Assembly (NCBI GenBank): GCA_963971405.1
Contig: OZ020491.1
Span: 2,982,910-3,046,909 of the forward strand
Direction of reading: 5' to 3'
DNA length: 64,000 nt
Source: Psococerastis gibbosa
Lineage: Eukaryota > Arthropoda > Insecta > Psocodea > Psocidae
This document shows, piece by piece, positions 5,721 to 62,582 of the stretch. Position numbers and translations under genes: made by a program. The notes under the pieces were generated by a model. It saw only the letters and a program-made list of their open reading frames with translations, ran no database searches and had not been told where the DNA came from. Position 1 is the stretch's first letter; every line of letters begins with the position of its first letter.

Positions 5721-5744
5721 CTTATCTTAGGCTCAAAGGCTTTT

Positions 5745-6110: not shown

Positions 6111-7234
6111 GTTTTGTTGAGGGCTGGATACCATATTCTATTTACTTTTAATCCTTTTTCCTTTCTTTTATAGGTTTTCGGATGTTTGTAAATTTCTATG
6201 ACCTCCCTGTGTAGTCGGGGCTAGTACGAAGCCGTGGTAGAGAGTATTGTAGCCTGCTCAAAACGTACAGTACCTATGGCCTGTTTGTATTAGCACATGC
6301 TCTGTAATTGCTGACCTCTCTGGCTGAAGAAGGCCACAGTTACGTTTGTGTTCATCTATCCTTGTTTTCAAGCTTCTTTTTGTGGTACCTACCTATGTAG
6401 AATTCTGTATACGCCTGCTGATGTCAGTGGGTCCCTGGCATCTTTGGCCTATCTGAGTAAGCTGTTTAGTTGTTGTGTAGGTTTGAATATTGTTTTCAAA
6501 TTGTGACGTCGAAAAAGTTTACCTATGCGATCCGTCACATTTTTATTGAAAGGAAGTTGGACCAATCCCATCGTGGCTGCTGGTTCCTGCCGATCGGTTG
6601 CATTACGCGGTGGCCGTATCGTGCTTTTTATTTCTCCCTCTGAGTACCCATTCGATTGTAGTGCAATGTCTAAGTGGTTTAGTTCTTCTTTTAGTGCCCG
6701 GTGTTCACAGATTCTATTGGCGCGGTGAATAATCGTCTTTATCATGGCGCTTTTGGCTCGGATGGTCGTTGGAGTTCTTATTTAGGTACCTATCAGTATG
6801 TGCTGGTTTACGGTATACTGTATGCCCTAGAGTTCCGCCTTCTTTATTACCAACACGTCAAGAAACGACAAATCACAATTAATCTCTTTTCCATCATGAA
6901 TTGTATTTTCGGGTGAATCAGGTTCATATGATTCAGGAAATTGATTAAGTTTTCTTGGCCATGACTCCATATCACAAAAGTATCATCCACATATCGAAAC
7001 CAGCATTTCGGTTGCAGAGGAGCTGAGTTCAATGCCGTTTTTTCGAAGAATTCCATATAGAAATTAGCCACTACCGGACTTATATTACTACCCATTGCCA
7101 TTCCGTCCAATTGTTCATATAAGGCCAAATTCCATTGGAAATACGTCTTCGTCAGCACATGGTGGAACCATTGGGTGATATCGTCAGTGAATTTTTCTTT
7201 TATCAATTCCAATGTTTCCTTGATTGGATCGACA
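6111..7234 (-). mobile_element. Penelope-like retroelement, truncated, frameshifted
   Basis: Minus strand, 5' to 3': RT with DPIKETLELIKEKF, the segment before the palm YEQLDGMAMGSNISPVVANF (about 7110-7050), the active-site box FRYVDDTFVIW (about 7005-6970), then IQFMMEKR. After a frameshift comes the RT-to-endonuclease linker at 6745-6449 (RAL.EEL.HL and a GLVQLPF.KNVTDRIGKLF segment), followed at about 6420-6180 by the GIY-YIG endonuclease region (VGTTKRSLKTRIDEHKRNC) and the downstream EIYKHP-type segment. The N-terminal part is missing. Its 5' end meets an inverted second copy at about 7234. Confidence 0.85.
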
Positions 7235-15440: not shown

Positions 15441-18317
15441 TCAATTTAAAAAACCCCGTAAACAAATTTTAAAAAGAGGTAGGCTGCAAAACGGGTCTAG
15501 ATCACCGTGTTCGTTGATTGTTTTTAAAATTCTAGACAGTGGGGCCTTGGATAGAGAGTTAGCCACAAACAGAGTTCTTAATCTTGTGTTCCTCACATTG
15601 ACTCTGAGCTGAACCCTTTCAAGTATAGTGGGGGCATCTAGCATACCGTTTATTAATTTGTGGAAGAATATACAGTCCGCAGACACCCTCCTATTCCTGA
15701 GCGAGCTCATCTCAAACTCAGCAAGAAGTTGGGAAGTTCTAACCGGATGATTGGCGTAGTGGGGATAAATCCCGTGCCGCCTGTAATGGAGATAGCGCAG
15801 AAAGCGCTTTTGGACCTTCTCAATCGAAATTGACAGGGATTCAGCCTCCGGTCGCCACACAACAGATGCATACTCAAGTCTAGATCTAACAAGTGCGTTA
15901 TAAAGGAGCTTATGTGTTGATGAATTTGAGAAATGGTAAGACATCCGAATGACAAAACTAAGAACTCTGTTTGCCGCCTTCACAATTTCCTCTACATGGG
16001 GTTTTAAGGTAAAATTTGATGTAAAAACAACTCCTAAATCTCTAATTGTCGAGCTCCTTTTAAGTGTGCTCCCGTTTAGAACATAAGAATATACAGATTG
16101 TGTACCTGTACAAAAACTCACCAGCTCACATTTACCACTGTGAATAGTCATTTTATTCAACATCGCCCATTCTGCAACTAGATCTATGATGCTTTGCATA
16201 TAATCTACATCACAACTATTTTCGACCGTATTGAAAACCTTTAGGTCATCGGCATACAACAAAACATTGTCAAATGAGAGAAAACCAGGTAAGTCATTTA
16301 AGAAAAGAACAAAGAGAAGAGGGCCAAGGATACTGCCCTGTGGAACACCACTGAGGACGCGAAAAGCGTCGGAAATGGCACCCCCATAGGAAACAAACTG
16401 AGACCTTGACGTTAGGTATGACTTTAGAATTAAAATGAGATTTGGAGGTATGTCAAAATTACTTAAAAGTTTTAAAATTAATAGGGAGTGGTTAACATGG
16501 TCAAAAGCGGATTTAAAATCGAAATACACTGTGTCAACTTGTATCTTCTTAGATAAGGCATCACCAATAAAGTTAGAGAAAGCCACGAGATTGGTTGTGG
16601 TTGATCGACCCTTCAGAAAACCATGCTGTTTAGGTGAAATGGCTCCATTCACGTTAGACATAATTCGATCGTACAGAATGATTTCAAAACATTTCGAAAC
16701 GGCGTCAAGATTGGAAATTGGCCTATAGTTCTCTCCCTTATTCCTATCACCCTTCTTAAAGATAGGACATACCCGAGAAATCTTCCACAAGTCTGGATAA
16801 ATGGAGGACTTAATGCAAAGGTTAAACAGAAAACACAAAGGTTTGGCTAACCAAATGTCACAGGCCTTATAAAGAAAGGATGGAATCAGATCCGGACCAC
16901 AAGAAAGGGAGACTTTAAGTTTTTTAAGAGCAGCGACTACTTCATCCTCAGTAATATAGACACTTACAAATACATTTGAAGTGCTCGGTAAAATGTTATC
17001 AAGAATACAATCAAGACTATTGTCCTCAATATACAAGGAACCAAACATATTAGCAAACTCTGATGCTATGTCACCAGGGTTTGAAAAAACATTACCGTTG
17101 AAAGAAAGGGAGTTAGGAGTACATTTTTTTACGTCCAGTTTGTCCCTGGTGAGATTCCATACTTTCTTGGGATCCTTTGAAATATTAGATTCACAATTTT
17201 GGGAAAAACAGCGGTATGCAGTTTTTATCTGCAATTTAATACTCTTCCTGAGAGACTTGTAGCGGTTACATATGCTTGCTGGTGCATTAGGAATACCCTT
17301 CATTTTATCAAAACATTTCCTTTTTTCTTTAAGGTCAGATATTATTTTTTTTGTATAGTAGGATGGGTATCTTTTGTCCAATGATACTTTAGTTTTAGGA
17401 ACAATTCCATCTAGTTGTGAGTATAAAATATCGTAAAACACTTTACATGCATCATTGGCATCAGCTATAGAAAACAATGTACTAAAATCAGCATATCTTA
17501 TTGCATTTACGAGTTGCAAACTGTCAGCCCTACTAAAATTGTACTTAACCTTACCCGTAGAGTTAAACGATGGACGTGATGTAGTCTTATTAATAAAACA
17601 GCCTAGCGACGGATGGTGTGAATCCTCTATAACCAAAGAAGCAACGCTTCTGTTTACAATGGCTGGGGTTGACCCCAGAATAAGGTCCAGAATGCGTCCC
17701 ATGGCATTCTTGACACAGTTATGTTGGACCAGGCTAAACCGTTCCATAAAATCGAAAAGAAGGGATGCCTTACCACATCCCCTATCTCCACTCAGACTCT
17801 TATAATAAGATGGAATATTAAAATCCCCAAAAATGTATATTGAATAATTTGAGTCCAGGCAGTCAAAAATTGTAGCACAGAAATCATAAAACATAGCATA
17901 CTCAGATGACGGACTATCGGTTAGTATGTAGACGCAGGACATGAGAAATTTCGATCCAAAGATGGATACATATATAAAAATAGCATCGACGTATTTGGTA
18001 TTGTAAGTGATTGGGCTCTTAAGGACATTAAAGTTATTTCTGATGGCGATGAGAACGCCCCCTCCCCTATCCTTATTAGACTTCGACTTATCATTGTCAC
18101 AACGAAAAACTTGATATGAGGTGGGAAAAATTTCGGAACTTTGAAAAGAGGGATTCAGCCACGTTTCAGTCAGAAAAAATACATCAGTCACTGAACAATC
18201 TGTTTGCACAGAATTAAAAATATTCCTGATTTTCGTTCGAAGCCCTCGCACATTTTGGTAATAAAAAGATAGAAGATTACCGACACTGGCACAATTTATT
18301 AGCGGAATTTTTATCAA
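15441..18317 (-). CDS. LINE ORF2: endonuclease and reverse transcriptase
   Basis: About 958 codons open. N-terminal AP-endonuclease-like domain: YYQNVRGLRTK (residues about 19-29), FLTETW with the catalytic Glu (about 48-53), GDFNIPSY (about 165) and the closing DSHHPS (about 229). RT domain: GRSTTTNLV (about 570), VDTVYFDFKSAFDHV with the first catalytic Asp, SGVPQGSILGPLLF, and LLYADDLKVF with the YADD centre (about 690). No RNase H. It nicks target DNA and copies its RNA by target-primed reverse transcription. The frame overlaps the ORF1 stop as TTGA; I find no ATG at the head of the frame, so translation probably depends on reinitiation or a non-ATG start. Confidence 0.9.
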   Translation of the reverse strand: MIKIPLINCASVGNLLSFYYQNVRGLRTKIRNIFNSVQTDCSVTDVFFLTETWLNPSFQSSEIFPTSYQVFRCDNDKSKSNKDRGGGVLIAIRNNFNVLKSPITYNTKYVDAIFIYVSIFGSKFLMSCVYILTDSPSSEYAMFYDFCATIFDCLDSNYSIYIFGDFNIPSYYKSLSGDRGCGKASLLFDFMERFSLVQHNCVKNAMGRILDLILGSTPAIVNRSVASLVIEDSHHPSLGCFINKTTSRPSFNSTGKVKYNFSRADSLQLVNAIRYADFSTLFSIADANDACKVFYDILYSQLDGIVPKTKVSLDKRYPSYYTKKIISDLKEKRKCFDKMKGIPNAPASICNRYKSLRKSIKLQIKTAYRCFSQNCESNISKDPKKVWNLTRDKLDVKKCTPNSLSFNGNVFSNPGDIASEFANMFGSLYIEDNSLDCILDNILPSTSNVFVSVYITEDEVVAALKKLKVSLSCGPDLIPSFLYKACDIWLAKPLCFLFNLCIKSSIYPDLWKISRVCPIFKKGDRNKGENYRPISNLDAVSKCFEIILYDRIMSNVNGAISPKQHGFLKGRSTTTNLVAFSNFIGDALSKKIQVDTVYFDFKSAFDHVNHSLLILKLLSNFDIPPNLILILKSYLTSRSQFVSYGGAISDAFRVLSGVPQGSILGPLLFVLFLNDLPGFLSFDNVLLYADDLKVFNTVENSCDVDYMQSIIDLVAEWAMLNKMTIHSGKCELVSFCTGTQSVYSYVLNGSTLKRSSTIRDLGVVFTSNFTLKPHVEEIVKAANRVLSFVIRMSYHFSNSSTHKLLYNALVRSRLEYASVVWRPEAESLSISIEKVQKRFLRYLHYRRHGIYPHYANHPVRTSQLLAEFEMSSLRNRRVSADCIFFHKLINGMLDAPTILERVQLRVNVRNTRLRTLFVANSLSKAPLSRILKTINEHGDLDPFCSLPLFKICLRGFLN

Positions 18318-19585
18318 GATGTTCTCTTTCTCCCCCGTACTAGTGATAAAAAAGGAGCACGACTCATCTTAGGGAACGAGGGGTTGTATCTTCCGAGACC
18401 CATTATCACTTTAATTGAATTACCTTCACCTTTCGACCAGGTACGGCGGTCTATATGGTTTACATGTAATTCAGCTTTTGAAATAATGCTATTGACAACC
18501 CCGAGTGCGGCTTGTGCAACTTCATCTATGCGGACGGTGGAAACCGGATCATTCAAAAAGGAATCGACGATGGTCTGAGCCAGCACAGATTTGATCCTCT
18601 TTGAAAACTGACTTGCATTTTTATCATAAGCGTTGAGCGGGATATCAACATTTCTGTAGTTTACGCCAAATTCACTACAGTACTTCTTTATAACTTCATT
18701 CACCGTCCATATATCATTATTTAGGTAACGCTTGTGATAACTATATGGAATATTAAGCACAGTTATTTTGCAATTTTTAGTTTTAGACAATGTGTGAATA
18801 GTACGGCGGATGCCTATTGGAAAGCAACTGATACTAGAAATATCATTGCTACCACCCAGAATAAAAATTTCATCATTATTGTTAAAATTTTGACTTAGAC
18901 TCTGTACATTATTAATGACACAAGATAATTTAGCGTAAGGTTTAGTAATGACCAGGGGTTTCACATCGACGCAACATTTTTTAAAACGAGAAGTTAAAAA
19001 GGAACCAAGCCCTTTACTATTTTCATCCCCTAGTACTAGGATGCGACGAGGAATGGAATTATCAGAATTTGAAAATAAAGTTGGGTTGGTTGGGGATGAT
19101 TCGTTCAACGGGGCAGGAAATTGAACCACACTCCTAGCTTTTTCAACCAATACTTCACACGCGGAAGGGGTAACGGATTTGTACACTCTAGGGCGAGGTA
19201 ATGCACAGGGCTCTTGGTCCTTAAGAGACGGTAAACTACAGCAATCTAAGATGCTACTTATGGTCGATCTATCCTTCTCTAGGAGCAATCTCAATTCATT
19301 AATTGTATTTCCCTGATCTTTCATATCCAACAACATACAGTGTTTTTCTTGGCGATACTGCTCACAAAGATGAAGATTGGCCTTATAAGACCGTTCCATA
19401 TCATCATATTGCATATTCCTAACGTTAAGATGAAGCTGAAGCTTACCGAAGTCGAAGATATTGGCGATGTTGGCCACCAAATTATTGAAGCAATCAACAT
19501 CATCAAAATTGACCCGGTTGCATCTCAGTTGATCAAAAACAGTACTTTCCAACTTCTCAATATCATTAGTTAGTCTCTCAGCCAT
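18314..19585 (-). CDS. LINE ORF1 with SGNH-hydrolase-like domain
   Basis: 423 aa from the ATG at 19585 (MAERLTND); the frame stays open upstream to 19645 but this start looks more natural. The N-terminal 120 residues look helical and may form a coiled coil (LRLLLEKDRSTISS at the end). Residues about 190-360 resemble the SGNH/GDSL esterase fold found in ORF1 of CR1-type LINEs: RILVLGDENSKG as block I and FILGGSNDIS as block III. Block I reads GDEN rather than GDS, so the catalytic Ser is not in its usual place and esterase activity is doubtful. The protein is expected to bind the element RNA. It overlaps ORF2 by four bases. Confidence 0.8.
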   Translation of the reverse strand: MAERLTNDIEKLESTVFDQLRCNRVNFDDVDCFNNLVANIANIFDFGKLQLHLNVRNMQYDDMERSYKANLHLCEQYRQEKHCMLLDMKDQGNTINELRLLLEKDRSTISSILDCCSLPSLKDQEPCALPRPRVYKSVTPSACEVLVEKARSVVQFPAPLNESSPTNPTLFSNSDNSIPRRILVLGDENSKGLGSFLTSRFKKCCVDVKPLVITKPYAKLSCVINNVQSLSQNFNNNDEIFILGGSNDISSISCFPIGIRRTIHTLSKTKNCKITVLNIPYSYHKRYLNNDIWTVNEVIKKYCSEFGVNYRNVDIPLNAYDKNASQFSKRIKSVLAQTIVDSFLNDPVSTVRIDEVAQAALGVVNSIISKAELHVNHIDRRTWSKGEGNSIKVIMGLGRYNPSFPKMSRAPFLSLVRGRKRTS

Positions 19586-20045
19586 TTCAAACAGAAAAAT
19601 TAATAAAAAATTGCCTTCAAAACAACCAATCAGTAAAAAGTACAAAAATAATTAAAAATTGGAATTAGTCGAGGACTGCTGATCGCAATTGCCTAACACA
19701 ATTAAAATAAGTTATTTAAAAAAGTTATTAATACACTGACATTGAATTAAAACGGGACGTAAACACAGAATTTAAAAGCGAACACAACGCCAATAGGGGC
19801 TTTAAAACTTAACGCCAAAAGGGCTAAGACTAACATATATCTTTAAAATCACAGGAACTTAACATCTAACGATTGCCAAAAGGGCTAAAACCTACATATT
19901 AGTTAAAAAGACTACAAAAGCTTAAAATCAAAACATTAAGAAGACGGCACAGTAGTAAACAAAAAGCAGAGAATAACGTGGCTGCAGACTGATGAGTCGT
20001 ACCTCCGACAAATGTCGCGCACGTGACCCCTTTAGAGAGGTCACT

Positions 20046-24700: not shown

Positions 24701-27700
24701 ATTCAAATTCAAGACAACAACAAATATGGCCGTTTTCTATTCCCCAAGTGCAGTTCCCCAACCTACCGGTTGGGCAACGTGGTAAGCGTAGTGAAACACG
24801 TTTCCATGGCATTCTTTTTCTACGGAGAAAAAATGAAGTTCTATTTTTCTATTTTCCCTCATTTTTCTACTTTCCCTTAAGGTAAACCAAACACAGTGAA
24901 TATCGCTTTTGAGAACAAGAGACTAGCAAAATTTATCAACATAAATAATCATCTCCATGTAAGTTATCTGACTAAAAAATAATAATGTCCAGAAAGACAT
25001 CTTAGGCGCCCATTCCACCGACCGGCTAGGGCTATTTACAAAAACGGTGACGTGGTAGCAGACATTCAAGACTTAGGTAGCGTTTCCAGCGACCTCGCAT
25101 TGCAGAATGCAAATGACATTGACGGAAATTACAATTTTTCTTTTTATAGAAATCTATGAAAATGTTTGTATTTAACATATCCCATGACGCCATTTTTTAA
25201 TTTTAGTTTGTTTGTGATTTTACTGTATGATCATTGATCAACTTTAACTATGGCATAGAGGAAAATAAACATTTCCGTCAATTCTGCAATGCGAGGTCGG
25301 TGGAAACCCCGCCTAAGTCTTGAATGTCTGCTACCACGTTTTTGTAAATATCCCTAGCCGGTCGGTGGAATGGGCGCCTTATGAGCCTAGGTCTACATAC
25401 GATAGGATGGCACTTGGAACACTTCGTATCTTCGATAACTTGAAGAAGCGGAACTCTGAGTTTATTCGATTTTATACGTGTTCCAAGTATCCTAGCGTGG
25501 TTGGGTAGTGTCATGTGACGTCATGTGACGTCATACTTGCATGTGTGGACTTGTAGTCTACGCCACATTAATCAAGAGATTGGTGAGAACTCATTCCTTC
25601 ATATTTATATATAAGGCGGGGTTTCGACCGACTGGCTAGGGCTAAATACAAATACGGTGACGTGGTAACAGACATTCATGACTTATGTGGGCTTTCCACC
25701 GACCTCGCATTGCAGAATGCAAATGACATTGACGGAAATGTTTGTTTTTCTTTTTATAGAAATCTATTAAAATGTTTGTTATTAACATATCCCATGACGC
25801 CATTTTTTAATTTTAGTTTGTTTGTTTGTGATTTTACTCTATGATCATTGATCAATTTCAACTATGGCAAATGGAAAACAAACATTTCCGTCTATGTCAT
25901 TTGCATTCTGCAATGCGAGGTCGGTGGAAACCCCGCCGAAGTCTTGAATGTCTGCTACCACGTCACCGTTTTTGTATTTAGCTCTAGCCGGTCGGTGGAA
26001 ACCCCGCCTATGGCGCATATTCCACCTACGTCAATAGTAAATGTGGTATTGACGTGGTAGCAGACATTTTTAGACTGTCTTTAATGTCTGCTACCACGTC
26101 CTTCGACCAATGCCAACGACTCCATGAATTTCGGACATTATTTGTCTTGTTTCCGTATGCATTACAACGTCTACAAGTGATAATGGACAAGCTTACCATT
26201 GACGTAATGTAACAGGTGAAAGCATGACTTTGGCGGGGTTTCCACATACGTCAATCGTCAATGAGAAATGTGAAAATGACGTAAATTGACGTGGTAGCAG
26301 AATTTTTAGTATGTATGTATTTAATGTCTGCTAAAACGTCATTTTCACATTCCTCATTGACGATTGACGTATGTGGAAACCCCGACTTAACCCAGTAACG
26401 AGTCAGTACTGTCGTACACGCAAACTACTCTAATCTTAGGAAGTCCCCAATAAGTGGCATTCCGAATTTGAACCCCGGGTGTGTTATTAATAATCATAGT
26501 ACAATACATGTATGTATGTTCAGCAACGTAGATCATTGGGATCCCTCACTAGGTGCGCTTTTTTAGCACGTGGAAGTTAGGAGCACCCAATAATTACAAT
26601 ACGAAGTACAAACAGTCAAAATCTTACATTAGTGCAAATTTACAATAGTATGCTTTGTGCAATAAATGAATATTGATTGGTTGGTACCTACCTAATACCC
26701 ATTGAAATAAATATAGACTAGACTACACGGTAACAACATCCGGGTGTTCAAATAAATGTGATTTGCATTTCCTACTAAATTCAGTCTGGCTTCCTATGTA
26801 GATTAGATCAGGGGGTAGCATATTAAATGTATAAATAAATAAATATATATATTTCTGTTAAATTATACAATAGAAGTAATCAAGAAAGTATAAAGGAAAA
26901 TCGTTAAAATGTCGTCAAAATCAGGCAGTTCTGTCATTGTCATTGTCATTGTGCTAGTGCCTCAGTGACAGTGTAGAAAGTTTTCTCTAAGAGATGGTTT
27001 CTAAGCAATTTAGGGAAGTTACAAGCATTTTTCTTCATCGCTCTCAGTTCAATCAGGAGGTTTTTAAGGTAGGCGAAATCTTGTAGTATAGGATCCAGTC
27101 ACTCACACTTGGCTATGCGTGGCGCTGGTCTTTCAAGGTCTCCCCGTTACTTCGTGTAGGTGTGAAAGTGAAAGAAAAAAAAATTGGAAAGTCTTCTTGA
27201 AGAATTCAACGTACGGTCGGAGATGATGCGCGCTACGTTCTGGCGAGCTCTGCTTTAAGTCGTTCCCTGTAGTCTATTCCCTGATCTCAAAAAGTGTGTT
27301 TGGAGAATTGTGCAAATAAAAAGATTTCAATTATTATTATATTACTTCAGGATAATGTCCCTTAGATGTAATACACTAATAGAATAATAATGGTAAAGTA
27401 ATCGTTTGGACATGTATCTGTGACTACTGAATAAACGCTTTAATAATGCAGGTATTAGGCGGCTATTCTGTCATTTGTGCATTAAAAATTGATGAGATGT
27501 TTGTTTTAAGGAGACTATTATTATACTTAACTTATTTATTATAAATTAAGTTATAATATGGTAGACTTATTATTGATGTCTACTGTACATAATAGTCTCC
27601 TTAAAACAAACATCCCATCAATTTTTAATGCACCAATGACGGATTATTGACAGGAATAGCCGCCTTATAGCATTGTTCATATTACAGGAAAATTGCAACA

Positions 27701-37500: not shown

Positions 37501-40500
37501 ATATCAATAATAATGAGACTATTATGTAGATACTTATCTATTGTAAATTGTTGTTGTCTATGATTATAAATAGTGTAGAGACGCTAATTAGTCTTTCCAT
37601 ATATGACTATCTTAATCACAGATTAACTATGTCTATGCACTACGAACTATTTCGCGCTGGGCCAAACGAAAGGCTCCTATTGACTCCATTTCCTTAATAG
37701 CACCGTTTAATTTGTTATACTCCACTAGTCCTTTCTGAAGTAACGAATTTCTCCCTATCTCCAGGGTCCTATGTTGAAGAGTGAAGTCGTTCCTTCCTCT
37801 GGTGTTGTACCCGTGATTGTCCGAGAATCGGTGTAGTTTTAGGTAACTTGGCATCAGTCCTTTTTTGATCTTTTGTATAAACGTTAAGGCGTCGGTCCAG
37901 ACCATATGATCCACTGATTGCCAACCAATTAATTAAGTTATAATATGGTAGAGACTTATTAATGATGTCTGCTACCACGTCAATGTCACGTGCATTATGA
38001 AAAACGAGGTCGTTGGAATTGCCGCCTAAGGCAGTGGACCCTAAACAACCTCATTTTGTGTGTCCAAACCAATCCGTCTAAAATATACGCTGCTTCTTAC
38101 ATTCAGTGCGGCAAAGGGTAATCAATCAATTTTACGCTTGCTATCAACTTTCAGATTGAAAGCGATCTAAACCTGGTGGAAGCCACTTTTCCCAGAAGCA
38201 GGATGTGCCTTGTCTGCATAGACCTTAATTATGCGACTCCCCTTAAACCATTCGACATTTGGAAATTTGCCGGTGTTTATCAGCTACATCTGTTGTTCGG
38301 ATCATTGGAGGTAAGAGTACCAATAATGTAGATAGATAGATAGATATCAGAACAGCCCGTTAAAGGGCAAGAAAGGGTAGAATTAGAAAGAAGAGGATGG
38401 AAGGCAGAACCATTAGTAGAGAGGATAGCAAGAAGGAGATATAGGAGAAGACCAAGTAAGATGGAAAGAACAAGTGCTCGAAGATGTTGTTATAATTTCT
38501 TTCTTTTCTTGTTTTTACTCCTTCTCATAAAGGCCTCCTCTCAATATACACTAGTAACTGGTACCAGTCCCTTCTTGACGGATGGAATGTAATGCCCAGA
38601 CTAACTCTTTAAGCCACTAAGGGGCCAGTCACCAGCGTGCATGAGTAGAATGCATTTTACTAGAGATCTAAGGAGCTAGCTACAAATTTAATGAGGCCAG
38701 ATATTACCTCACACAATAGGCAGCTGAAATCTCCTCTACCCTAGACAAAATACACTCTATCTCTTCTCAGGGGTTTCTTTCCAAATAAAACCAACTATTT
38801 TACCCAGGTAAATGAAATAAAATTCTGTAATGTTACGAAAATAACCGAATAAACAAAATCAAAAGTAACCAGTGTGAAACATTATTTAGGCCTACTTAAC
38901 TGCTGTAAAAGTGTAAATAGAAAGTGCGATCTCTGGTAGTCCTAAAATGTCTCAGATCAGCAATAGGTGGAAAGCGCCAAGGGTTAAGCTATTAGAATTA
39001 AGTCTGAGAAAAGATGGCCAACCAATGTAGGTAAACCCTAACCTACATGTCGAAAACAGGACTACAATGACTACCAGAGACCGCCCTCCCAACAAATCTT
39101 AATCATTAAAAATTCAAGAAAGACATACTACCGTAGATACTGTATATAGATGAATACAAAACTTGAAACCAGCGGATAGATCCTACCTTCCGTGTTGCAT
39201 ACAGAATTGATTATAGGTTAGCGAATCCACATCAATCTCTTATAAAGCCAATTCCTTCCCTGGTGTTCATGGCAGCTCCAAGTCCAATGTTTTTTCAGTG
39301 TAAGGGTACTTAATATCTCATCCCTCTTGGCCCCGGTAAGGCCTTAAAAGCTCTCAGCCTTCCATCATTTCTTTTTAAAAATACAAATCAAAACCAACCT
39401 CTCCTCCTTTGGCCATTTTCCTTATCTCCTGTCCTGACTTGTCTCTTCCTATGGTTCCCTTGATTTTTGTAGATGGCAGCACCTTCCGGCCACTCTTGAT
39501 TTTTCCGCCTTATTTTCAATACATTACAAATCTCCCCTCTTCCAAAAAAAAAATGATTTTAATTCCCTCAAGACATTGAAACATTTTTAAATGAAAACCG
39601 CATATACCACAATTTTAAAGGAACGCAGGCTTCAACTGGCTCACTTCTACCCTGCCAACCTCCACTCCCTTCAACGTCTCCAAGGATATTTGGTTCGTTC
39701 CCAAAATCTCCTTTACTCGGTAAGGCCCCTTGAACCTCGGCTGAAGCTTCGCCGATATGCTGTCCGCCTTGCTGCTGCGGGGAAAGTCTTTCTTCCAGAC
39801 TAACGCCCCTTTCACCAACCTAGACGGGCGTCTTCGAAGGTTGTATACATCCGCTGACTTCGCCTTGTACTTCAGCACATGTTCGACCGCTTGCTCGTGT
39901 AGTATTTTCAATTTGTTGTTAAGGTCCGTCACATGTTCCACTTCGTCCCCCATCTGAGCATCGCCAGTGTGAGTGACTGGATTCGGATCATAGACAGGCC
40001 TGAGATGCCTACCATAAAGTAGTTGTGCCGGCGAAAAACCTGTCGCCGTATGAGGAACTGTTCTAAGGGCTCTCTCAACTATCGGCAGGTACCTGTCCCA
40101 CTGCTTGTGCTTGTTTTTAGCGTAAATCGCTATACAGTTCTTAATTTGCTGGTTGACTCGCTCCACAGATCCATTCGTAAAAGGTGCATATGCTGGGGTT
40201 ATGTGATGGGAAATACTCCTTTCCACACACCACAATTTAAACGCTTTGCAAGCAAACGATGATCCTCCATCTGTGATTATCACCTCCGGACACGAATGCG
40301 CAGGAATTATATCCTTATCCCACACCTGAATGCATGCGGCCGCTGTAGCTGCTCTAATAGGCCTAATGTATACCCACTTCGACATTTGACACACTGCTAC
40401 AAAAATGTACTTGTAACCGTTTGGATGCGTTGTAGGCAGTGGCCCAATTAAATCCGCATTTACCACTTGAAATGGTACACTCGCCTGGCTTCTGACCTTC

Positions 40501-43500
40501 ATTATACCTGTTGGTCCCGATAGATCAGGTTTCTGCTGCTGGCACTTAACGCACATCCTGACATAATGCTTCACTGATTGACGCAACCTTGGCCAATAGT
40601 ATGCCGTTAAAATGGCTTTCGCTGTTTTCAGTGTACCTGGGTGAGAGAAATCATCATGAAATGATCGAATGATTTTGGCTCGTTCATGAGCTTTTGCTAC
40701 CCTTCTCCGGACAATTTCCTTTGTAACCGGATCTGTGATGAGTTTAAATAGAATGCCATTTTCTATGCTAAAGGCAGGATACTCATTAGGAAATTTCGAA
40801 ACTCTATCCCTAAGATCTTCATACCATGAATCCTTCATATCTTCTTGACTCCCAATGACACATACCTCCGGAACTCCACTCTTCTTCCTGGTTGTTTCTT
40901 CTTCTTCTTCATACGGACACCTTGACATGTAATCACAAAGTCCATTCTGCTCACCACTAACAAATCTTACATACATCTGATACGCACTGATCTTTAGTGC
41001 CATTCTATGGAGCATCGGCGTCCCTGATTTTAGATTCTGCAACCACTGTAAACTGCTATGGTCCGTTATAATCTCATTCTGTTTATTTGCTGGTCCGCCC
41101 AGAATGTATATTCTAAATTTTTCCAGTCCAAATATAGCTGATAGACATTCTTTTTGTGTGACACTGTATGAACGCTCACTAGGTTTCAATGCTCTGGATG
41201 CATATGCAATAACTACATTCCCTTCAACTTTCCTTTGAGTAAGTGCCGCTGAAATGGCTACTGCTGAAGCGTCACATCTGACTTGGAAAGGCTCCGAAAA
41301 GTCTGGCGTACCAAGAACCGGAGCTGAGCATAACGCCTCTTTTATCTTTCTAAATGCTACTGACCTTGACTCAGTCCATTGAAACTTTTGGCCTTTCTTG
41401 AGTAACTCATTGATTGGCGCGGCTAATTCTCCTAAATTCTTGATAAATTTTCTCAAAAATTGAACACATCCTAAAAATTGTCTCACTTGACGTGGTGTTT
41501 TCGGCTCTGACCACTTTTTAATCGCTTCCACTTTCTCTGGGTCTGGCGATAGAGTATCATTACAAATGACATATCCTAAGAATTTCAAACGCTCTTGTAG
41601 AAATTTTGACTTTTTATAATTTATGATAAAATTATTTTCTCTTAACTTTGTTAGGACCTTGTCCAGTATTTCCCAATGCTCCTCTACTTTCTTCGTGTAA
41701 ACACAAATATCATCTACAAAAAAAGCAATACCTTTAGTTCCAAGTGGTCTTAACACTTTACTAATGGTTTTGTGCCATTCATGAGGTACTGTACTTATGC
41801 CTAGTGGTGCTCTAGTGTACTCCCACTTTGACGAAATCGTGAAACTTGTATACTTTTGACTGTCCGGATGAATAGGGAGAGAAAAATAAGCTTCTTTTAG
41901 GTCAATCAAACTCAGAATACAAGCTCCTTGTATACCTTCAATTACCTGATTCAGGTCCGGTGAAATACTCGTCTGTGGTCTTATTCTAGCGTTTAACGCT
42001 CTGAAGTCATTAATCAAGCGCTCTTTTTGGCGCGTATGATCAATATACATAAAGGCTGGTGTGTTCCATTCCGAATTACTTTCTACCAGCACTCCTTGAG
42101 CCTGAAGTCTCTTGCATTCCCACTCAGCTTTCTCTTCAAGAGCAGGAGGTAGCCTATACTGTCTTATTTGCACTGGTGGTAACGTTTCATCCACGTAAAT
42201 CCTTAGAACGCCCGCTTCTGTAACTCCTGATGAATTCTTAAACCTCTCTTGCCACTCATTTAATCTGATCGCCGCTGCTTCCTTCATTGCCGGTGTTAGG
42301 CAGGGATGAGTGAAATCTGCTGGCACATACTTTTCCAAAACTTGAGAGCTTTCTGTAAATAACTTTGCCTCTTCTTCTAACTCTGCTAATCCTATCTCGT
42401 CAACTGACAATTCATTCTGCGAGCATAGCGGAATCCTTTCAGGTTCTTCATTGTTATCATCCGAATCTAGCGTAAGGACTCTGTCAGCTACCCGAATCGA
42501 CGCCTTTAACTGAGTTAACGTATCCATCCCAATTATGAATGGGTGCCTCAGACCTTTTATAAGGCAAACAGACTGTTTGACTTTCTTTGATCCAATCTTC
42601 AGCTCGACCCATGCCTTCCCTACTAACTCTGCTGTAGTATTGTCGGCTAATTTCACACTTCCAGTGCCAGGAATAACTCTGTAGCCTTTCGCCAGTAATA
42701 AATCAAACCATTTTGCTTGAATACAACTCTTTGAACAACCCGTATCGATCATTCCCGGGAATCTCGTGCCCCCTATATGAACTGAGATGAACATTCTCGC
42801 CTGCGGGCCTATGCATGACAATACAATACCATCATCCGACGGTGTTATTCTAGGTAACTCCTTAATGTATTCCGCAAAACAATCTTCTGCTGGACATGGT
42901 TCCTTAGCCATGAAGGGTTCTGACAGTGAAGAGGCCAACTCTTCCCTCACTGTCCCCTCTTCCCGTTTCCCTGGTTGGCGTCCAACAACTTATCCACCTT
43001 TTCCGTCAATGCCAATATCGCGTCCTGCATTCGGTTCATCCTTTCTTCCGATGACATAGCTGATCCTCTCATGACATTTCTCCTTCGTCCTACGTCACCA
43101 CAGCCATGACCATACACCACTCCTTTCTTACCACATCGTGTACAAAACACCCCTCTGGGTTTGGGACACTCCCTGAAAAGGTGCGATGGGGATGAGCAAT
43201 TGTGGCACAATAAATTCACTTCGTCTTCTTCTTCTTCATCACTACGTTCCAGAGCAAACATTGACTGACTTGATTGGACAACTTGACTACTTCTGATAGT
43301 AGCCTCTATTGTTGAACACGCATCTTCCAGCTCTTGTAAAGACGAAAATTGCATGAATGCTAATTGGGACTGGTAGACTGGTTGCAGATTTCCTCTCGCT
43401 ATATCAATAACTACTGTAGCATCCACTTTCATGCCAAGCTTTTTGACTGATCGCCTAATATCGCTGATGAAGTCAATTGGTCGCTCTGTGATACCTTGAC

Positions 43501-46366
43501 GTCTGCCTAATATCGCTTGTAAAGTTCTAGCCTCACCCCTGCATGGTATGTAAGCTTGAATCAGCGCCTTCTTAGCCTTTCTCCAACTTCCCCATTGGCG
43601 CAAATGCTGCTCAAAAAACCTATCTACCGGAGCAAGCAGTATGTCACTTATTGCTGGCCAAAATTCATCTAAATCCACTCCATGCAAAACGGCTAGTTTT
43701 TCTATTCGTTCTAAGAAATCTTCAATGTCTCCTGTTCCATCAAAGACCAACTTCCTAGCATGTGCCATGTTCAGAAAACGCATTACTTCCGGTCCCACTT
43801 GTCGTGTTAGGTCCACATTCTTGTGAAATTTCTTTACCCTCTTCTTCACTGCCGTATCACCACTGGCTCTTGATTCATCCCCGGAATCTGTACTAGACTC
43901 CTGACATCTTAGTGACCCCTTCGGTTTAGTATACCTCAAATTACTCTCCTGTTCCACATGACCCGTTTTTTCTTTATTTTTAATACTTTTACCTTTCAGA
44001 AAACGAGTTAAGGGCAAGTCTTCATCCGAAGAGCGATGTTCCCTACTCTCGGTCTGATGAATACCCACTTGTTCGGTATTTCCATTTTTATGTTCACTGT
44101 TACCCTCTATATGCTCTTCCTCATTGTCTTTCAATTTGTTCCTATTGGCTGCTCTTTTCTCCCTTCCGGTGCCTGACTTGTCCGTCATTGTGAGTATGAC
44201 CCTTCGTACTGGGTTAATAGCACTCTATTGCTATGTATATTTCTCAAAGGTACAAAAAAATAAAAAATAAAAAATTCGCTAACCTAATCAATTTCACATT
44301 TTAAAAGGGCTACGAAACACAACAAAATAATAACCCCAAATAGCTTCTTAGATAAAACACTGCTGCACTCCAATCAATAAGTGTCTATTCCTATAATGAA
44401 AGTCCAAAACTGACAATATTCAAAACAAAATATCCAATTAACCAAAGATACCAGCTCTCACACAGTTCGAGCTCACGCTATCCAATCACAAATCGCTAAA
44501 CCTGACTCTATAAATTCATAATTTGGCCTTTCAATCCGGGGCCACAAGTTCGAAATCCAAAGCATTATCCCTTAACTGACTTTTATCCGACACTAATTGT
44601 CCATCTTCGCTAACCCAATCTTAACATAAAGTAGAAATTTTTTTTACTAAGCAATTTAAATCCCCAGATTTGAGACAACTTACTTAATATTCCAATATAA
44701 TTATAATAGTACAGTATGGGACCCAGTTCCCCTCCGCTTATCCTAAAGTTTCCAAATTTAAAACCTGCAAAGGCGAAGACAGATAACCCCATAAAAGAAA
44801 ACTACCCCCACAGTAACATAATAAACCAAACATGTTTATTGACTTACTACAAGATAGACTGGTAAAACAGTTGATATAGTATAGTATGAAAAGCATACAA
44901 TATAATAATAGAAGAAACTACCTCCATAGTATCACAATAAACCAAAAATGTCTATTGACTTACTACTGGGCACATTAGAAAAACAATTAATACCGTACTG
45001 TATTCGACGAACGCATATGATATAATAATAATAAAAAATCTACATAGTGTCATAATAAACCAGAAATGTCTATCGAGTTACTACCTAGCACACTGAAATA
45101 ACAGTTAACATAGTACTGTGTATTTTACTGAAGCATACAATATAATAATAATAATCAAAAGGTAGGTAGGTAGGTACTCCGTGCAATGAAATATATATTA
45201 GGGTGGGTGGGTAAAATAGCTGAAATTCAAAACTTGGGTGCCAGCGGATAGATCCTACCTTCCGTGTTGCATACAGAATTGATTATAGGTTAGCGAATCC
45301 ACATCAATCTCTTATAAAGCCAATTCCTTCCCTGGTGTTCATGGCAGCTCCAAGTCCAATGTTTTTTCAGTGTAAGGGTACTTAATATCTCATCCCTCTT
45401 GGCCCCGGTAAGGCCTTAAAAGCTCTCAGCCTTCCATCATTTCTTTTTAAAAATACAAATCAAAACCAACCTCTCCTCCTTTGGCCATTTTCCTTATCTC
45501 CTGTCCTGACTTGTCTCTTCCTATGGTTCCCTTGATTTTTGTAGATGGCAGCACCTTCCGGCCACTCTTGATTTTTCCGCCTTATTTTCAATACATTACA
45601 ATGTGCACTTCACCGGCACCCGATTTTGGAAGCGAGTGGCGGAAGATCGTCAGAGGTGGCGTGGTGTAGTGGCAGCGGCCAAAAGTCCCCCCGGGCTGGA
45701 CGCGCCAACCTAAGTCAAGTAAGTCAAACCAAGCAAGAGACACAAAAACCAGATTGACGTCGATTTTAGAAGTTGCTGTAAATTATGTTTAAATGCTCCA
45801 CATAAGCCAACAACAATCACAATCAGCGACGATACTTCGTAACGTACCATAATCATGGGCTCTATATTTTGGAATTGACTCACAACAGTTGTTCAATTGA
45901 AACTTCCCTCTTCCAAAGATTAGAACTCTATTGGTAGAAAGTAATAATAATAATAATCATCTAATTCCCAAATGGTACAATACATACAGTATGTTCAGCA
46001 ATGTAGATTGGGATCCCTCACTAGGTGTGCTTTTTTAGCACGTGGAAGTGAGGTGCAGCCAATAATTACAATACAAAGTAGAAACAGTCAAAATCTTACA
46101 TTAGTGGAAATAAACAATATCGCGCTTTGTACAATAAATGAATGTTTGTAGGTAGGTACCTAATATACAATAAAATAAATATAGAGTAAAGCAAGTGTCT
46201 TATGCGGAATGTGACTTTATTTTTGACAGTTTTAATTTTATTTTAGGAAATGGTCGGGGCAGTCAACTTAGCTGACCGGACCATTCGGATCGTGAATAGG
46301 GGCTGTGGTATCACTGGGGTATCTGCGCCTTCTCTTATTGAATCAATCGCTGCGCTTACTCTTTGA
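34572..46366 (+). CDS. CENPM: Centromere protein M (CENP-M) homologue
   Basis: Four exons, all joined in phase 0 with GT-AG borders: 34572-34643, 37232-37435, 38155-38310 and 46247-46366 (stop TGA 46364-46366), 183 aa; vertebrate CENP-M is about 180. The protein reads as a small Ras-like fold: an INIILVCPDREV strand at residues 22-33 where GTPases have the P-loop (no GxxxxGKS here, as in CENP-M), ADFVIFIALASH at about 79-90 (DLIVFVVNLHS in vertebrates, from memory), MCLVCIDLN, YQLHLLFGSLE, and a C-terminus IVNRGCGITGVSAPSLIESI matching the vertebrate VSALNLLSLL-type end. CENP-M is a pseudo-GTPase of the inner-kinetochore CENP-H/I/K/M complex. Start: AAAATGG. Introns 1-3 carry a LINE, a split MITE and a gypsy element. 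Identification is from remembered family sequences, not a search. Confidence 0.75.
34644..34999. other. CENP-M intron 1, left end
   Basis: No recognised repeat or ORF between the exon 1 donor GTAAGT and the LINE tail. Confidence 0.3.
35007..36990 (-). mobile_element. 5'-truncated RNase H LINE in CENP-M intron 1
   Basis: Minus strand with a poly(A) tail (T-run at 35008-35027 on plus). RT starts inside the palm: CRWIRSMLSNRRI, RGTAQGGVISPLLWNL, VYAQGYADDLAIV (about 36745), then thumb EVKYLGVNLDKGL. RNase H follows: VWYTDGSKMENGAG (about 35940) in the RT frame, then after a frameshift near 35760 IIYTDSQAAIKAV and NFDGNERADELA, with a CRLCEVEEETAEHILFEC cluster near 35280. Gene-sense CENP-M transcripts would carry it antisense. 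No target duplication found. Confidence 0.85.
37022..37105 (+). mobile_element. SINE tRNA-like head fragment
   Basis: Matches the head of the tRNA-derived SINE (GAGTAGTGGTACAGACTCCG, then TTGGTGCGAGTCC as B box), in plus orientation like 53893-54085. Body missing. Sits at the 5' side of the LINE in CENP-M intron 1. Confidence 0.6.
37510..38028. mobile_element. MITE in CENP-M intron 2 split by a LINE fragment
   Basis: The left part (37510-37560) reads TGAGACTATTATGTAGATAC and CTTATCTATTGTAAATT; the right part (37928-38028) resumes AATTAAGTTATAATATGGTA, then GTCTGCTACCACGTCAATG, and ends GCCGCCTAA. Together they match the 58800-58960 MITE. Confidence 0.65.
37633..37920 (-). pseudogene. LINE C-terminal fragment nested in the MITE
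   Basis: 93 codons open on the minus strand with HGYNTRGRNDFTLQHRTLEI, SLLQKGLVEYNKLNGAI and FRLAQREIV. This is the usual extreme C-terminus of non-LTR RT proteins (H.YNTR ... YN.LP ... FK). No catalytic part. Both exon-flanking segments of CENP-M intron 2 are intact. Confidence 0.65.
38311..39168. other. CENP-M intron 3, left part
   Basis: Starts with a GATA microsatellite (38330-38344) and a short segment like a LINE C-terminus (RPSKMER-type, about 38440-38480). The rest shows no recognised feature up to the gypsy LTR. Confidence 0.35.
39169..39529 (-). repeat. Gypsy 3' LTR
   Basis: Identical by eye to 45241-45601. Minus strand begins TTGTAATGTATTG and ends ATCCGCTGG. Followed outward by CAAAACTTG, a sequence also found just inside the 5' LTR. 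Confidence 0.85.
39615..42950 (-). CDS. Gypsy pol: protease, RT, RNase H, integrase
   Basis: 1111 codons open. Aspartic protease DTG at residues 69-71 (FPGMIDTGCSKSC). RT with LINDFRALNARI, LSLIDLKEAYFSLP and the catalytic FFVDDICVYTK. RNase H with FQVRCDASAVAIS. Integrase: HHCC zinc finger (H...H...CVKCQQQ), core with VVNADLIGPLP (first Asp), IITDGGSSFACKAF (second Asp) and NGSVERVNQQIKN (Glu). No disrupting stops. The frame overlaps the gag stop by three bases in another phase and begins at GTG, so it is probably made by ribosomal frameshifting from gag. Confidence 0.93.
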   Translation of the reverse strand: MREELASSLSEPFMAKEPCPAEDCFAEYIKELPRITPSDDGIVLSCIGPQARMFISVHIGGTRFPGMIDTGCSKSCIQAKWFDLLLAKGYRVIPGTGSVKLADNTTAELVGKAWVELKIGSKKVKQSVCLIKGLRHPFIIGMDTLTQLKASIRVADRVLTLDSDDNNEEPERIPLCSQNELSVDEIGLAELEEEAKLFTESSQVLEKYVPADFTHPCLTPAMKEAAAIRLNEWQERFKNSSGVTEAGVLRIYVDETLPPVQIRQYRLPPALEEKAEWECKRLQAQGVLVESNSEWNTPAFMYIDHTRQKERLINDFRALNARIRPQTSISPDLNQVIEGIQGACILSLIDLKEAYFSLPIHPDSQKYTSFTISSKWEYTRAPLGISTVPHEWHKTISKVLRPLGTKGIAFFVDDICVYTKKVEEHWEILDKVLTKLRENNFIINYKKSKFLQERLKFLGYVICNDTLSPDPEKVEAIKKWSEPKTPRQVRQFLGCVQFLRKFIKNLGELAAPINELLKKGQKFQWTESRSVAFRKIKEALCSAPVLGTPDFSEPFQVRCDASAVAISAALTQRKVEGNVVIAYASRALKPSERSYSVTQKECLSAIFGLEKFRIYILGGPANKQNEIITDHSSLQWLQNLKSGTPMLHRMALKISAYQMYVRFVSGEQNGLCDYMSRCPYEEEEETTRKKSGVPEVCVIGSQEDMKDSWYEDLRDRVSKFPNEYPAFSIENGILFKLITDPVTKEIVRRRVAKAHERAKIIRSFHDDFSHPGTLKTAKAILTAYYWPRLRQSVKHYVRMCVKCQQQKPDLSGPTGIMKVRSQASVPFQVVNADLIGPLPTTHPNGYKYIFVAVCQMSKWVYIRPIRAATAAACIQVWDKDIIPAHSCPEVIITDGGSSFACKAFKLWCVERSISHHITPAYAPFTNGSVERVNQQIKNCIAIYAKNKHKQWDRYLPIVERALRTVPHTATGFSPAQLLYGRHLRPVYDPNPVTHTGDAQMGDEVEHVTDLNNKLKILHEQAVEHVLKYKAKSADVYNLRRRPSRLVKGALVWKKDFPRSSKADSISAKLQPRFKGPYRVKEILGTNQISLETLKGVEVGRVEVSQLKPAFL
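42947..44188 (-). CDS. Gypsy gag
   Basis: 413 aa from an ATG at 44188. N-terminal third is charged and low complexity (Glu/Lys/Ser-rich). The central region (about residues 130-290) is the capsid-like part, with a QAYIPCRGEARTLQAILGRR segment typical of gypsy gag. One CCHC zinc knuckle near residue 330 (C-x2-C-x4-H-x4-C, CHNCSSPSHLFREC), then a second Cys-rich stretch CTRCGKKGVVYGHGC. It packages the element RNA. Confidence 0.88.
   Translation of the reverse strand: MTDKSGTGREKRAANRNKLKDNEEEHIEGNSEHKNGNTEQVGIHQTESREHRSSDEDLPLTRFLKGKSIKNKEKTGHVEQESNLRYTKPKGSLRCQESSTDSGDESRASGDTAVKKRVKKFHKNVDLTRQVGPEVMRFLNMAHARKLVFDGTGDIEDFLERIEKLAVLHGVDLDEFWPAISDILLAPVDRFFEQHLRQWGSWRKAKKALIQAYIPCRGEARTLQAILGRRQGITERPIDFISDIRRSVKKLGMKVDATVVIDIARGNLQPVYQSQLAFMQFSSLQELEDACSTIEATIRSSQVVQSSQSMFALERSDEEEEDEVNLLCHNCSSPSHLFRECPKPRGVFCTRCGKKGVVYGHGCGDVGRRRNVMRGSAMSSEERMNRMQDAILALTEKVDKLLDANQGNGKRGQ
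44189..45240 (-). other. Gypsy 5' leader
   Basis: Untranslated leader between the 5' LTR and gag. The primer-binding site should lie just inside the LTR, where the minus strand reads CACCCAAGTTTTGAATTT. The middle holds tandem repeats. Confidence 0.6.
44813..45155 (-). repeat. Three tandem units (about 117 bp) in the gypsy leader
   Basis: On the plus strand, units start AACATAATAAACCAAACATG (about 44815), TCACAATAAACCAAAAATGT (about 44931) and TCATAATAAACCAGAAATGT (about 45049). Each continues with TATTGACTTACTAC-like and ACAATATAATAATA segments. Units differ by point changes and small gaps. Confidence 0.75.
45241..45601 (-). repeat. Gypsy 5' LTR
   Basis: Same 361 bases as 39169-39529. Expected to hold the element promoter and polyadenylation signal; on the minus strand an AATAAG-like signal follows the TTGTAATGTATTG start. 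Confidence 0.85.
45602..45941. other. CENP-M intron 3, right of the gypsy element
   Basis: No recognised feature. A short GC-rich stretch at 45620-45700 (GTGGCGTGGTGTAGTGGCAG) looks like a tRNA-type A box and may be a SINE head. Confidence 0.35.
45942..46195. repeat. Dispersed repeat, copy B
   Basis: Same family and orientation as 26486-26716. Ends about 50 bases before CENP-M exon 4. Confidence 0.7.
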
Positions 46367-51300: not shown

Positions 51301-54300
51301 TGTAAACGTTACCTAAGTCTTCAATGTCTGCTACCACGTCACCGTTTTTGGAAATAGCCCTAACCGGTCAATGGAATGGGCGCCTTAGTGTGACTTTGTA
51401 GTTATGGACCCCTCTTGTCTGTCTTTTGGCGTCAGCATGTTTCGCTCATTTAGTTCTGACGCCTCGGTCGTTGGTATAACAGGCCCGGTGATTTATGCAT
51501 AACTCGTTTTCAGTTCTTAACAGTTTCAGCAAGCCGGAGCACCTTCATATTTCCATTGCAAAAGCCTTTCGATCCCTCAGCTGCCCATTTCTGGTTCAAA
51601 AACTGACAACCTCCTTTCTGCAGCCTCAGCATGCTGCACTACTTTTTTATATTCTTGAGAAAAGTGAGCTGCATTATTTTTTCTGTTACAGGGCAGCCCA
51701 ACTGTGAAGCCAGCGCATCCGTTCAATCCTCAGGCGGATGCCGAAGTTTTGCGTAAGGCAATGAAAGGGTTCGGGACCGATGAGGCAGCCATCATTGCGG
51801 TGCTGAGCAAAAGAACTAATGCGCAAAGGCTGGAAATTTCTGCGCAGTTTAAAACTTTGTACGGCAAGGTGTGTGACTTTTTACTAGACAGTTAAGGTCT
51901 ACCGATTTTTTTTAAATTTATGTTTTTGTGAACGCCGAGTAGTAGTTTTTATTTCAAATGCCAAGACTTTCGGTTCGACCATCTCTTGATAAGTATCTGT
52001 GAGGATTAATATAGGATTCTACCAATGCATGGCGGTGACTTGCAATATTCCTTACCGAGTCTGTTCAAGTGTCGATGAGAACCACCCTTATTGTGTATTG
52101 TTAGCAGTATCGCCAATAGCATTTATGTTCTATGTAGGAGAGATTCCAAGTCAATATTTTTTTATGACCTTCGACCAATCAGAGCTTCGACCACCGTCTT
52201 CTTTCAACCAATCAAAGAAGGCCTTGCAATAGTTGAGCTATAAAAATGTCTAAATCACTTAGACTCTTTTGACTCTTTTCTATTTCAACGATAGAGGCTT
52301 CCATATTTTTTTTCGGGATTTAAGAGTTTTGCCAGTCGGTAGAGGATATTTTCCCAATAATAATAATAATAATAATACCCAATAATACCCACAACTCATT
52401 TTCGATTTTTTTGGAGTTAAGTGGTTTGCTAATTAGGGTATCGATATGCAGTCTTATCATCAATATTGTGTTATCTGTTTGAAAGGTTCTCTAGGCTACC
52501 TTTTGTATCAGTTTTATTTTATCAGCTACGTGGAGCAGTAGGTTCTTCCACGATACTTTATATGCTATGCCCGCTATCTCGTTAGATAATCACGGTAGAC
52601 AACGGTTTGACACCATCAGGGTAAAGCAAGGGGACGTAGGGTATCGACCCTCTGAATTGGCCACTCTTGTGTAGGAAAATGCTTGTGTCCAACCAATCAG
52701 AATATATTTATTTCATGACTATCTTCAAAAACGCCTTGACTGTGTTGGTGTAGCAGCGGAACCTTTTTGGCCTCTCTGCGATACCCGGCCAAGAATGGAC
52801 TAAAACACTTTAAGACGTGCCCTGCTCAAATCAATAGCAATCGTTCACTAGTTATATGTTGAATTGGGTCGCATGAAGCTGATGTTGGAAGCACAATGCT
52901 ATGGCGTAAAGAAAATATTTCTATGGATTTTTATATAAAAGAGGTTGATTAAACTCCTGACTGATTTGAGGCTATGTCCAATGGATTTAATTTATGATAA
53001 AATCCAATCGTAAAGCCAGTTGATAACAGCAGGTGCGCAAGGAAATGGCAAGAGGAATAAATAGAAGGAATACAAGGAAAGGATGCAGAAGCTAACTTGA
53101 GAACGATCTCAGGTAGTAGGACTGGTACCCGGTACCTGGTACTTCCACCTGGAAGTGTTGAATGATCGGAAGGGAAAAGAGAATGTAATTAAATGAAATA
53201 ATTACTTTTTGTTGTATTACTAAAACTAATGTGTAGAGTGGTAAAATTAAATGACTGCATAATTTCCACAAAAATATATATAATTAAAAATTAGTTACAG
53301 CTGTTTCGGTGTTACACCATCATCAGACTAGTTTAGGTTAGAAGGTTAGTTATTAAAGCTAACATAGCGGAGTTAGGGCTATAAACTGTCCTATGGGCCC
53401 ACACCGTGGCCTGGGACCGTGTCCAACCATACTACTACTAGGGCTTCATGAGTAGAGGAAGAAGAACGCAAGAATCCACAGTAAATACTTTAATACTGAC
53501 CGGTTTCGGATAAAATCCATCATCAGACTAACAACACATCAAAAAACGCCAGCTTATATACTACGGGATGGGAGTGGGAGGTGGAGGCGGGGGTCGAGTA
53601 CATAAATTCTTCTTCCTCTACTCATGATGTTCTCCAAGTTCCACGAAGTCACCAAGGACTACTAGGGCTATAAAGCTCTTTCTTTTAGTCCACTAGGAAG
53701 ACCCGGGACCACCTGCTTTACATACCATTCAAAGCCTAGCCAGAAAATATAGCAAGCGAGGGACTTGAACCAAAAACCTTTCGGGTCTGAGTCCTTACCG
53801 CTTTTCTGAGTGGAAGAGGCTCACACCTGACCCCTTATTGACGATGATAATAACAATCAAAGAACTCAGGAAATGATAGGTTCAGAAACGAAAAGCTTTT
53901 TGTAGGGCATTTAGAGTAGTGGCACGAACTCCGACTTTCACTTGAACGGTTATCGATTCGAATACCACACTCGCTATATGCTTCGGAAGACATGTAAAAC
54001 AGGCTGTCCCGGGCTTTCCTAGTCGAATGCAAGGAAGGGCTTTATAGTTCTAACTGCGCTAGGTTGGCTTAGTTATGTAAAAAAAGTAACTATTTATTTG
54101 ATGCGCCAACGGCCTTACCATGTTGAATCCATTAGAACAAAGCATGTTTCAAACTGTGGCAAACTTGGTAGTGTGCACAGCGTTGGCAGGGGAACATGGT
54201 GGGACAGGATAACGCGCTGAGGCTAAACAAGTCAGTCTACGTGCGTGTAGATTCCCTGGTCACCTCCGATTCAATCGTGTGGCTTTACCATGTTCCCCAA

Positions 54301-62197: not shown

Positions 62198-62582
62198 GGT
62201 GCCCATTCCATTGACCGGCTAGGGCTATTTCCAACAACGGTGACGTGGTAGCAGACATTCAAGACTTAGGTGGCGTTTCCACCGACCTCGCATTGCAGAA
62301 TTGACGGAAATGTTTATTTTCCTCTATGCAATAGTTAAAATTGATCAATGATCATACAGTAAAATCACAAAAAAAAAAACCTAAAATTAAAAAATGGCGT
62401 CATGGGATATGTTAAGTACAAACATTTTAATAGATTTCTATAAAAAGAAAAATTCTAATTTCCGTCAATGTCATTTGCATTCTGCAATGCGAGATCGGTG
62501 GAAACGCCACCTAAGTCTTGAATGTCTGCTACCACGTCACAGTTGTTGGAAATAGCCCTAGCCGGTCAATGGAATGGGCGCC
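62198..62582. mobile_element. Long-palindrome MITE, copy 4
   Basis: Ends GGTGCCCATTCCATTGACCG and CCGGTCAATGGAATGGGCGCC-like; flanks TTA and TAA. Subterminal GTGGTAGCAGACATTCAAGA. Very similar to 51001-51384 across its whole length. Confidence 0.8.

Follow-up and report, generated by a model that had tools for sequence, protein, structure and literature searches.

Minimal hammerhead ribozymes at the ends of Penelope-like insertions in Psococerastis gibbosa, with arm ends near a TATA-like element and at the predicted cleavage site

The hammerhead motifs in a 64,000-nucleotide stretch of the Psococerastis gibbosa genome (contig OZ020491.1, positions 2,982,910–3,046,909; hereafter the window) probably belong to 5′-truncated Penelope-like copies, which carry a minimal type I hammerhead in the pseudo-LTR where promoter and ORF meet and of which a minority would have been copied from hammerhead-cut RNA. 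The two intact ribozyme copies of the window are ends of Penelope elements, an already known kind of jumping gene, and no new family. On the basis of the core pattern and the paired stems I and II, the motif is classed as a minimal type I hammerhead with predicted self-cleavage.

Two intact motifs had been reported in the window by the first-pass annotation, with stem II sequences that differ and yet pair fully, and both statements held. CTGATGA and GAAACCGGTC are intact at 3646–3674 (plus strand) and at 53498–53526 (minus strand), and stem II reads GGTA/TACC in the former and GGAT/ATCC in the latter (53526–53498). Throughout the 409-Mb genome, the pattern CTGATGA...GAAACCGGTC gave 675 exact matches and the reversed-pattern control gave none. 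CTGATGA...GAAA alone matched four times in the 64 kb against an expected 1.55, which was not significant, as 8 of 100 shuffles reached four.

The second motif lies in a complete mini-insertion of the A subfamily (53446–53657, delimited by blastn to arm A). Its short-tail arm (53446–53607, minus strand; A coordinates 520–682) stands head-to-head with another arm (53607–53657, plus strand; A 662–713) that is shorter than the usual long end, and a 12-bp target-site duplication, ACTACTAGGGCT, flanks the insertion at 53434–53445 and 53658–53669 (both plus strand). The core CTGATGATGGATTTTATCCGAAACCGGTC occupies 53498–53526 on the minus strand, with predicted cleavage after its last C; stem I of this copy has a mismatch, AGT facing AGT where the usual partner is ACT. 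The first motif lies in a B-subfamily insertion with head-to-head arms (3299–3728, some boundary bases being common to insertion and duplication), bounded by a 14-bp duplication, AAGCCGTATTATAT, at 3285–3298 and 3729–3742 (both plus strand; the same insertion is present in locus L062). The core CTGATGATGGTATCTTACCGAAACCGGTC (3646–3674, plus strand) sits in the short-tail arm (about 3515–3731, plus strand), and the long-tail arm (about 3298–3520, minus strand) holds a decayed second hammerhead with an altered core, GAAACCGGCC, at 3399–3408 (minus strand). The setting had been described as foldback or inverted-end repeats free of reverse transcriptase (RT); this was correct in that both motifs lie within inverted-repeat insertions and neither copy has an RT domain, but the 3.3-kb copy matches both ends of the Penelope ORF and holds codons from each.

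A third hammerhead-like motif, unmentioned in the first-pass annotation, was noted at 53291–53326 (minus strand; 53326–53304 in a narrower delimitation), 120 bp from the A insertion. It has stem II GGTG/CACC, stem I AGT/ACT, the cleavage triplet GTA and a stem III, ACAGCTGT, that is self-complementary and unlike ACCGGT. By eye, the sequence after it looks like the tails of A and B, and the motif probably represents another Penelope subfamily.

For the analysis of structure and arm ends, positions were numbered on an arm of locus L009 for subfamily A (stem II GGAT/ATCC) and on an arm of L016 for subfamily B (GGTA/TACC). The hammerhead then occupies 601–629, with cleavage predicted after C629. 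Rather than being unpaired in most genomic copies, stem II was paired in 86.2% of its cells over 29 distinct variants, taken from 100 of the 675 pattern places and all 18 of a second list with three length variants left out. The covariation score of stem II in these variants was 0.415 compared with 0.134 for shuffled data, and none of 500 shuffles scored as high; at the third pair alone we counted AU nine times, CG seven, UA six and GU three, with four variants unpaired. Stem I covaries in part, more weakly than stem II. Among 43 distinct 37-mers (identical sequences merged), its first pair was formed in 35 (UA in 27 and CG in eight; shuffled mean 29.5, with one of 2000 shuffles as high), and no significant covariation was detected at its remaining pairs in the same set. 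Inspected by eye, the two sides of stem I are AGU/ACU for A, AUGU/ACGU for B, AGC/GCU for group C (stem II GGC/GCC) and UAU/AUA for group E, the fourth. The core was required by the search pattern and these figures are therefore no measure of its conservation. Taken on its sequence, the motif looks like a hammerhead under constraint.

One extra U is present between A9 and stem II, and an extra residue occurs at the same place in a viroid hammerhead. Stem III is the self-complementary ACCGGU (ACAGCUGU in the third window motif), which is consistent with two ribozymes pairing with each other, as has been published for variants of Penelope. A search of Rfam 15 gave no hammerhead family match at either window place with E-values up to 10, probably because stem III is not closed, and the isolated monomer motifs folded no better than shuffled sequence.

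What had been called 'foldbacks' are insertions made up of two cDNA arms in inverted orientation, with their tails outward. Tail-bearing copies numbered 471 for A and 146 for B genome-wide, and 34 inverted pairs were found in the scanned loci and the window, after exclusion of L001–L008, which overlap later loci. In 30 of these 34 pairs the outer ends were one LONG (about 724–730) and one SHORT (about 680–692), so that one tail was ~42 nt longer than the other. SHORT/SHORT pairs were absent, the single LONG/LONG pair was the inner junction of locus L058, which has a LONG and a SHORT outer end, and the remaining three had another end, including the 53.5-kb window copy (SHORT and 713). Seven loci with one common flank, including the 3.3-kb window copy, were counted as one insertion, leaving 28 distinct insertions. 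Exact target duplications of 9–15 bp were found in 19 of the 28, with L058 as one more by eye, and no convincing duplication was seen in eight (L009, L014, L015, L020, L023, L031, L053 and L059).

Where the arms begin was read in two samples. The A sample was chosen by tail sequence and not by the ribozyme, and comprised 93 arms read of 100 listed, all on contigs 1–3; removal of nine open-ended arms and seven starting at or upstream of 520 left 77 resolved ends. For B, we used all 13 compact pairs (26 arms) among the first 100 of 146 listed places: nine arms began at 597–598, eight at 630, directly 3′ of the predicted cleavage site, and nine elsewhere. The eight arms at 630 come from four of the 13 compact insertions (L156–L159), in each of which both arms begin exactly there with ACGT common at the joint. 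Four of 13 at one given position has P = 1e-4 under uniformity, even if all joins are taken as symmetric, and all eight arms lie in concordant pairs (chance 5e-4). The palindrome of this joint occurs at exactly four places in the genome, the same four insertions; since the four are flanked by different target duplications and each combines a LONG with a SHORT tail, they are separate events. The A sample, which was tested first, showed no significant peak at the cleavage site (4 of 77 ends at 629–631; P = 0.13 versus uniform and 0.27 versus local background), and two of these four ends are both arms of one insertion, L160, which has both arms at 630 and a duplication with one mismatch. The five insertions ending at 630, four B and L160, all have different target duplications.

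These sequences hint that the ends at 630 are footprints of hammerhead self-cleavage in vivo, but joining of cDNA ends guided by the palindrome ACGT is a serious rival, which we regard as possible though rather doubtful. ACGT at 630–633 is a palindrome in B and the common centre of the four B insertions, symmetric joins at another palindrome, ACCGGT, do occur in A (L104 and L108), and A shows no significant excess at 630. However, B contains longer palindromes close by, ACCGGT at 623 and AATATATT at 636, and neither was the centre of any of the 13 compact pairs as compared with four for ACGT. Furthermore, L159 (B) has extra tandem units of about 10 nt, every one restarting at 630, and short units restart at 630 in L160 as well, an A insertion in which no palindrome of at least 4 nt starts at 630. 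Such restarts are what repeated copying of an RNA end predicts, and we read them as probable run-off and re-copying by RT at the 5′ end of the hammerhead product. The concordance of the arms fits one RNA serving both cDNAs, but palindromic joining would produce it too.

Another class of ends lies just upstream of the ribozyme. In the A sample, 17 of 77 ends fell at 596–599, with 12 exactly at 598 (P = 6e-10 versus uniform for the 17), and 58 of the 93 tail-bearing arms were stubs, starting at or after 596. A ribozyme-selected sample with identical sequences merged agreed for A, with 19 of 59 arms at 598, and gave 3 of 15 at 597–598 for B. Position 598 is the A of TTAGT; TATATAA begins 31 nt upstream of it, at 567 in arm A and in arm B. 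From this geometry, that of a TATA/initiator start, we infer that the 597/598 peak marks a transcription start; with 5′ ends clustered there, the RNA seems to have the ribozyme as its first structure. It is unlikely that the peak instead reflects pausing of RT at an RNA structure. The ribozyme does lie directly downstream in the RNA, and a second cluster of ends at A 611–617, inside stem II (13 of the 93 tail-bearing A arms, often opposite an arm ending near 598), could be taken for such pausing. But RT moves 3′ to 5′ and should stop where it runs into the structure, at about 618–633, not past it, and in A and B alike the peak lies 30–31 nt beyond the point where TATATAA begins. A G directly before 598 in 11 of 20 arms (identical sequences merged; P = 0.011 among non-T bases, a post hoc value) is a further weak hint against pausing, as a possible signature of cap copying.

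The motifs had been proposed to form a non-autonomous retrozyme-like family separate from the Penelope elements, and this part of the proposal did not survive. Upstream of the ribozyme, the sequence of both subfamilies continues into the GIY-YIG-coding end of a Penelope ORF (PF01541 in A, 23.3 bits, above the cut-off of 22.6). One near-full-length Penelope copy, L058 (contig 1, minus strand), carries the motif in both of its pseudo-LTRs, which are in direct orientation; its order is an inverted long-tail arm, a pseudo-LTR with ribozyme, ORF, RT, GIY-YIG, and a pseudo-LTR with ribozyme and a short tail. Two long frames of L058 overlap in different reading frames and were searched apart: the RT frame matched RVT_1 at 4.9e-11, and GIY-YIG scored 18.5 bits, below the cut-off. 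Among 7988 scored sequences, 1439 were homologues of the RT, and the organisms named for the best 120 of these were all insects (butterflies, moths and Diabrotica beetles). An ATG in the ribozyme lies upstream of, and in frame with, MMKFHEVT, which stands where the short tail ends. Which start codon is used is ambiguous, as many longer homologues among the best 120 are annotated to begin near a motif like MxFHxVT and not at the ribozyme ATG. The absence of RT from the short copies is ordinary 5′ truncation.

A separate retrozyme-like family is thus very improbable. Many copies do have the ribozyme and no RT, but Penelope ORF sequence flanks the ribozyme on both sides, and the arrangement is not that of a retrozyme. 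Among 200 listed places, the first 100 for each tail, neighbours within 5 kb formed 52 head-to-head pairs, four direct pairs and no tail-to-tail pair. Three direct pairs were spaced at 2.6–3.5 kb, and 1 of the 56 close pairs was direct at a retrozyme spacing of 246 bp; the retrozyme was rejected for want of short (about 150–400 bp) direct tandem arrays among these places. Scarcely credible is a DNA transposon of the foldback or MITE type, bounded by terminal inverted repeats; it would account for the inverted arms and target duplications but was rejected because equal terminal inverted repeats are absent (the outer ends are systematically LONG and SHORT), inner junctions vary among copies, and single-arm and full-length retroelement forms exist, L058 among them.

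The truncated Penelope copies probably arose as follows. Pol II would start at the A 31 nt downstream of TATATAA, placing the ribozyme first in the RNA, and RT would begin internally, near the ORF start codon, using each of the two strands of the cut target. From a monomer transcript, RT would then copy only about 90–130 nt, giving a stub that runs from the RNA start to the tail with a ribozyme but no RT, which would explain the ribozymes without RT, since an internally starting RT copies only a stub from monomer RNA. Full-length copies would need read-through or tandem RNA. For a minority of stubs, the template RNA would already have been cut by the hammerhead, so that the arms begin exactly 3′ of the cleavage site. 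As a tentative extension, which may be right but to which we would not commit, stubs would record the 5′ ends of their template RNAs, in an intact-start class and a class cut by the hammerhead in vivo, and both cDNAs of an insertion would come from one RNA holding two RT subunits about 42 nt apart. If true, one RNA with two RT subunits would explain both the one long and one short tail and the agreement of the arms in class.

The two-arm layout is the published layout of Penelope elements; a one-long-one-short rule was not found as a count in PMC11167929 or in the accessible part of PMC3846280. In common with members of the Penelope/Poseidon group such as PAc of Anolis (PMC11167929) and the bdelloid rotifer Penelopes (PMC3846280), the present elements have RT and GIY-YIG, direct and inverted head-to-head pseudo-LTRs, a 30–40 nt tail on one end, target duplications and a TATA/Inr-like promoter. 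Unlike these elements as described, they have a near-strict tail asymmetry, an inferred RNA start that abuts the ribozyme and, in 58 of the 93 sampled A arms, stubs. In PAc, the hammerhead lies at the pLTR–ORF junction with the ORF starting at stem II, two internal RT start sites bound the tail, and cleavage is protein-assisted (PMC11167929). Mutating the PAc ribozyme left insertion in vitro unaffected, and RNA-seq showed no ends at the cleavage site (PMC11167929), whereas some arms here end exactly at that site. In the titles and abstract openings of literature on Penelope hammerheads together with transcription starts or insertions, we found nothing on insertion ends at the cleavage site beyond PMC11167929, which does not establish absence from print.

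For Penelope-like elements, minimal variants of the type I hammerhead were described by Cervera and de la Pena (2014) and Lunse et al. (2017), as cited in PMC7761336 and PMC10085705, and cleavage as dimers is a reading published, to go by its title, by Lunse et al. (2017; cited in PMC10085705 and PMC7761336). According to these citing papers, the published variants are like the present motif in their CUGAUGA...GAAA core, short stem II and a stem III that is too short to close within a single molecule; the extra U between A9 and stem II is a possible difference. Metazoan retrozymes, as described in PMC7229834, likewise have a type I hammerhead and many copies without RT. They differ from the present copies, which lack short direct tandem units (with the one possible case at 246 bp) and have Penelope coding sequence on both sides. 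The exact break points of the stubs hint that Penelope RNA is cut in vivo by its own hammerhead. Such break points in an assembled genome could serve as a tally of intact versus self-cleaved templates, through which this cutting becomes testable without an active element, and the dispersed ribozyme motifs would have a simple origin as short Penelope insertions that run from the RNA start to the internal RT start.

Several other observations were made along the way. The 246-bp direct pair consists of two B tails on contig 14 (35994719 and 35994965). The flank of the 3.3-kb insertion is common to six fetched loci (L021, L026, L048, L057, L060 and L062), and a diverged Penelope RT relic at window 6750–7224 is also present in L048 and L057, so a larger duplicated block (window about 3300–7230) seems to carry both the insertion and the relic. 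Long hairpins at 26238–26380, 25712–25911 and 62244–62536 matched plant microRNA models below the gathering score; by eye they are palindromic elements, probably MITEs. Two long open frames resemble, by eye, a Gypsy-type LTR retrotransposon (39615–44224) and a non-LTR retrotransposon (15441–19651).
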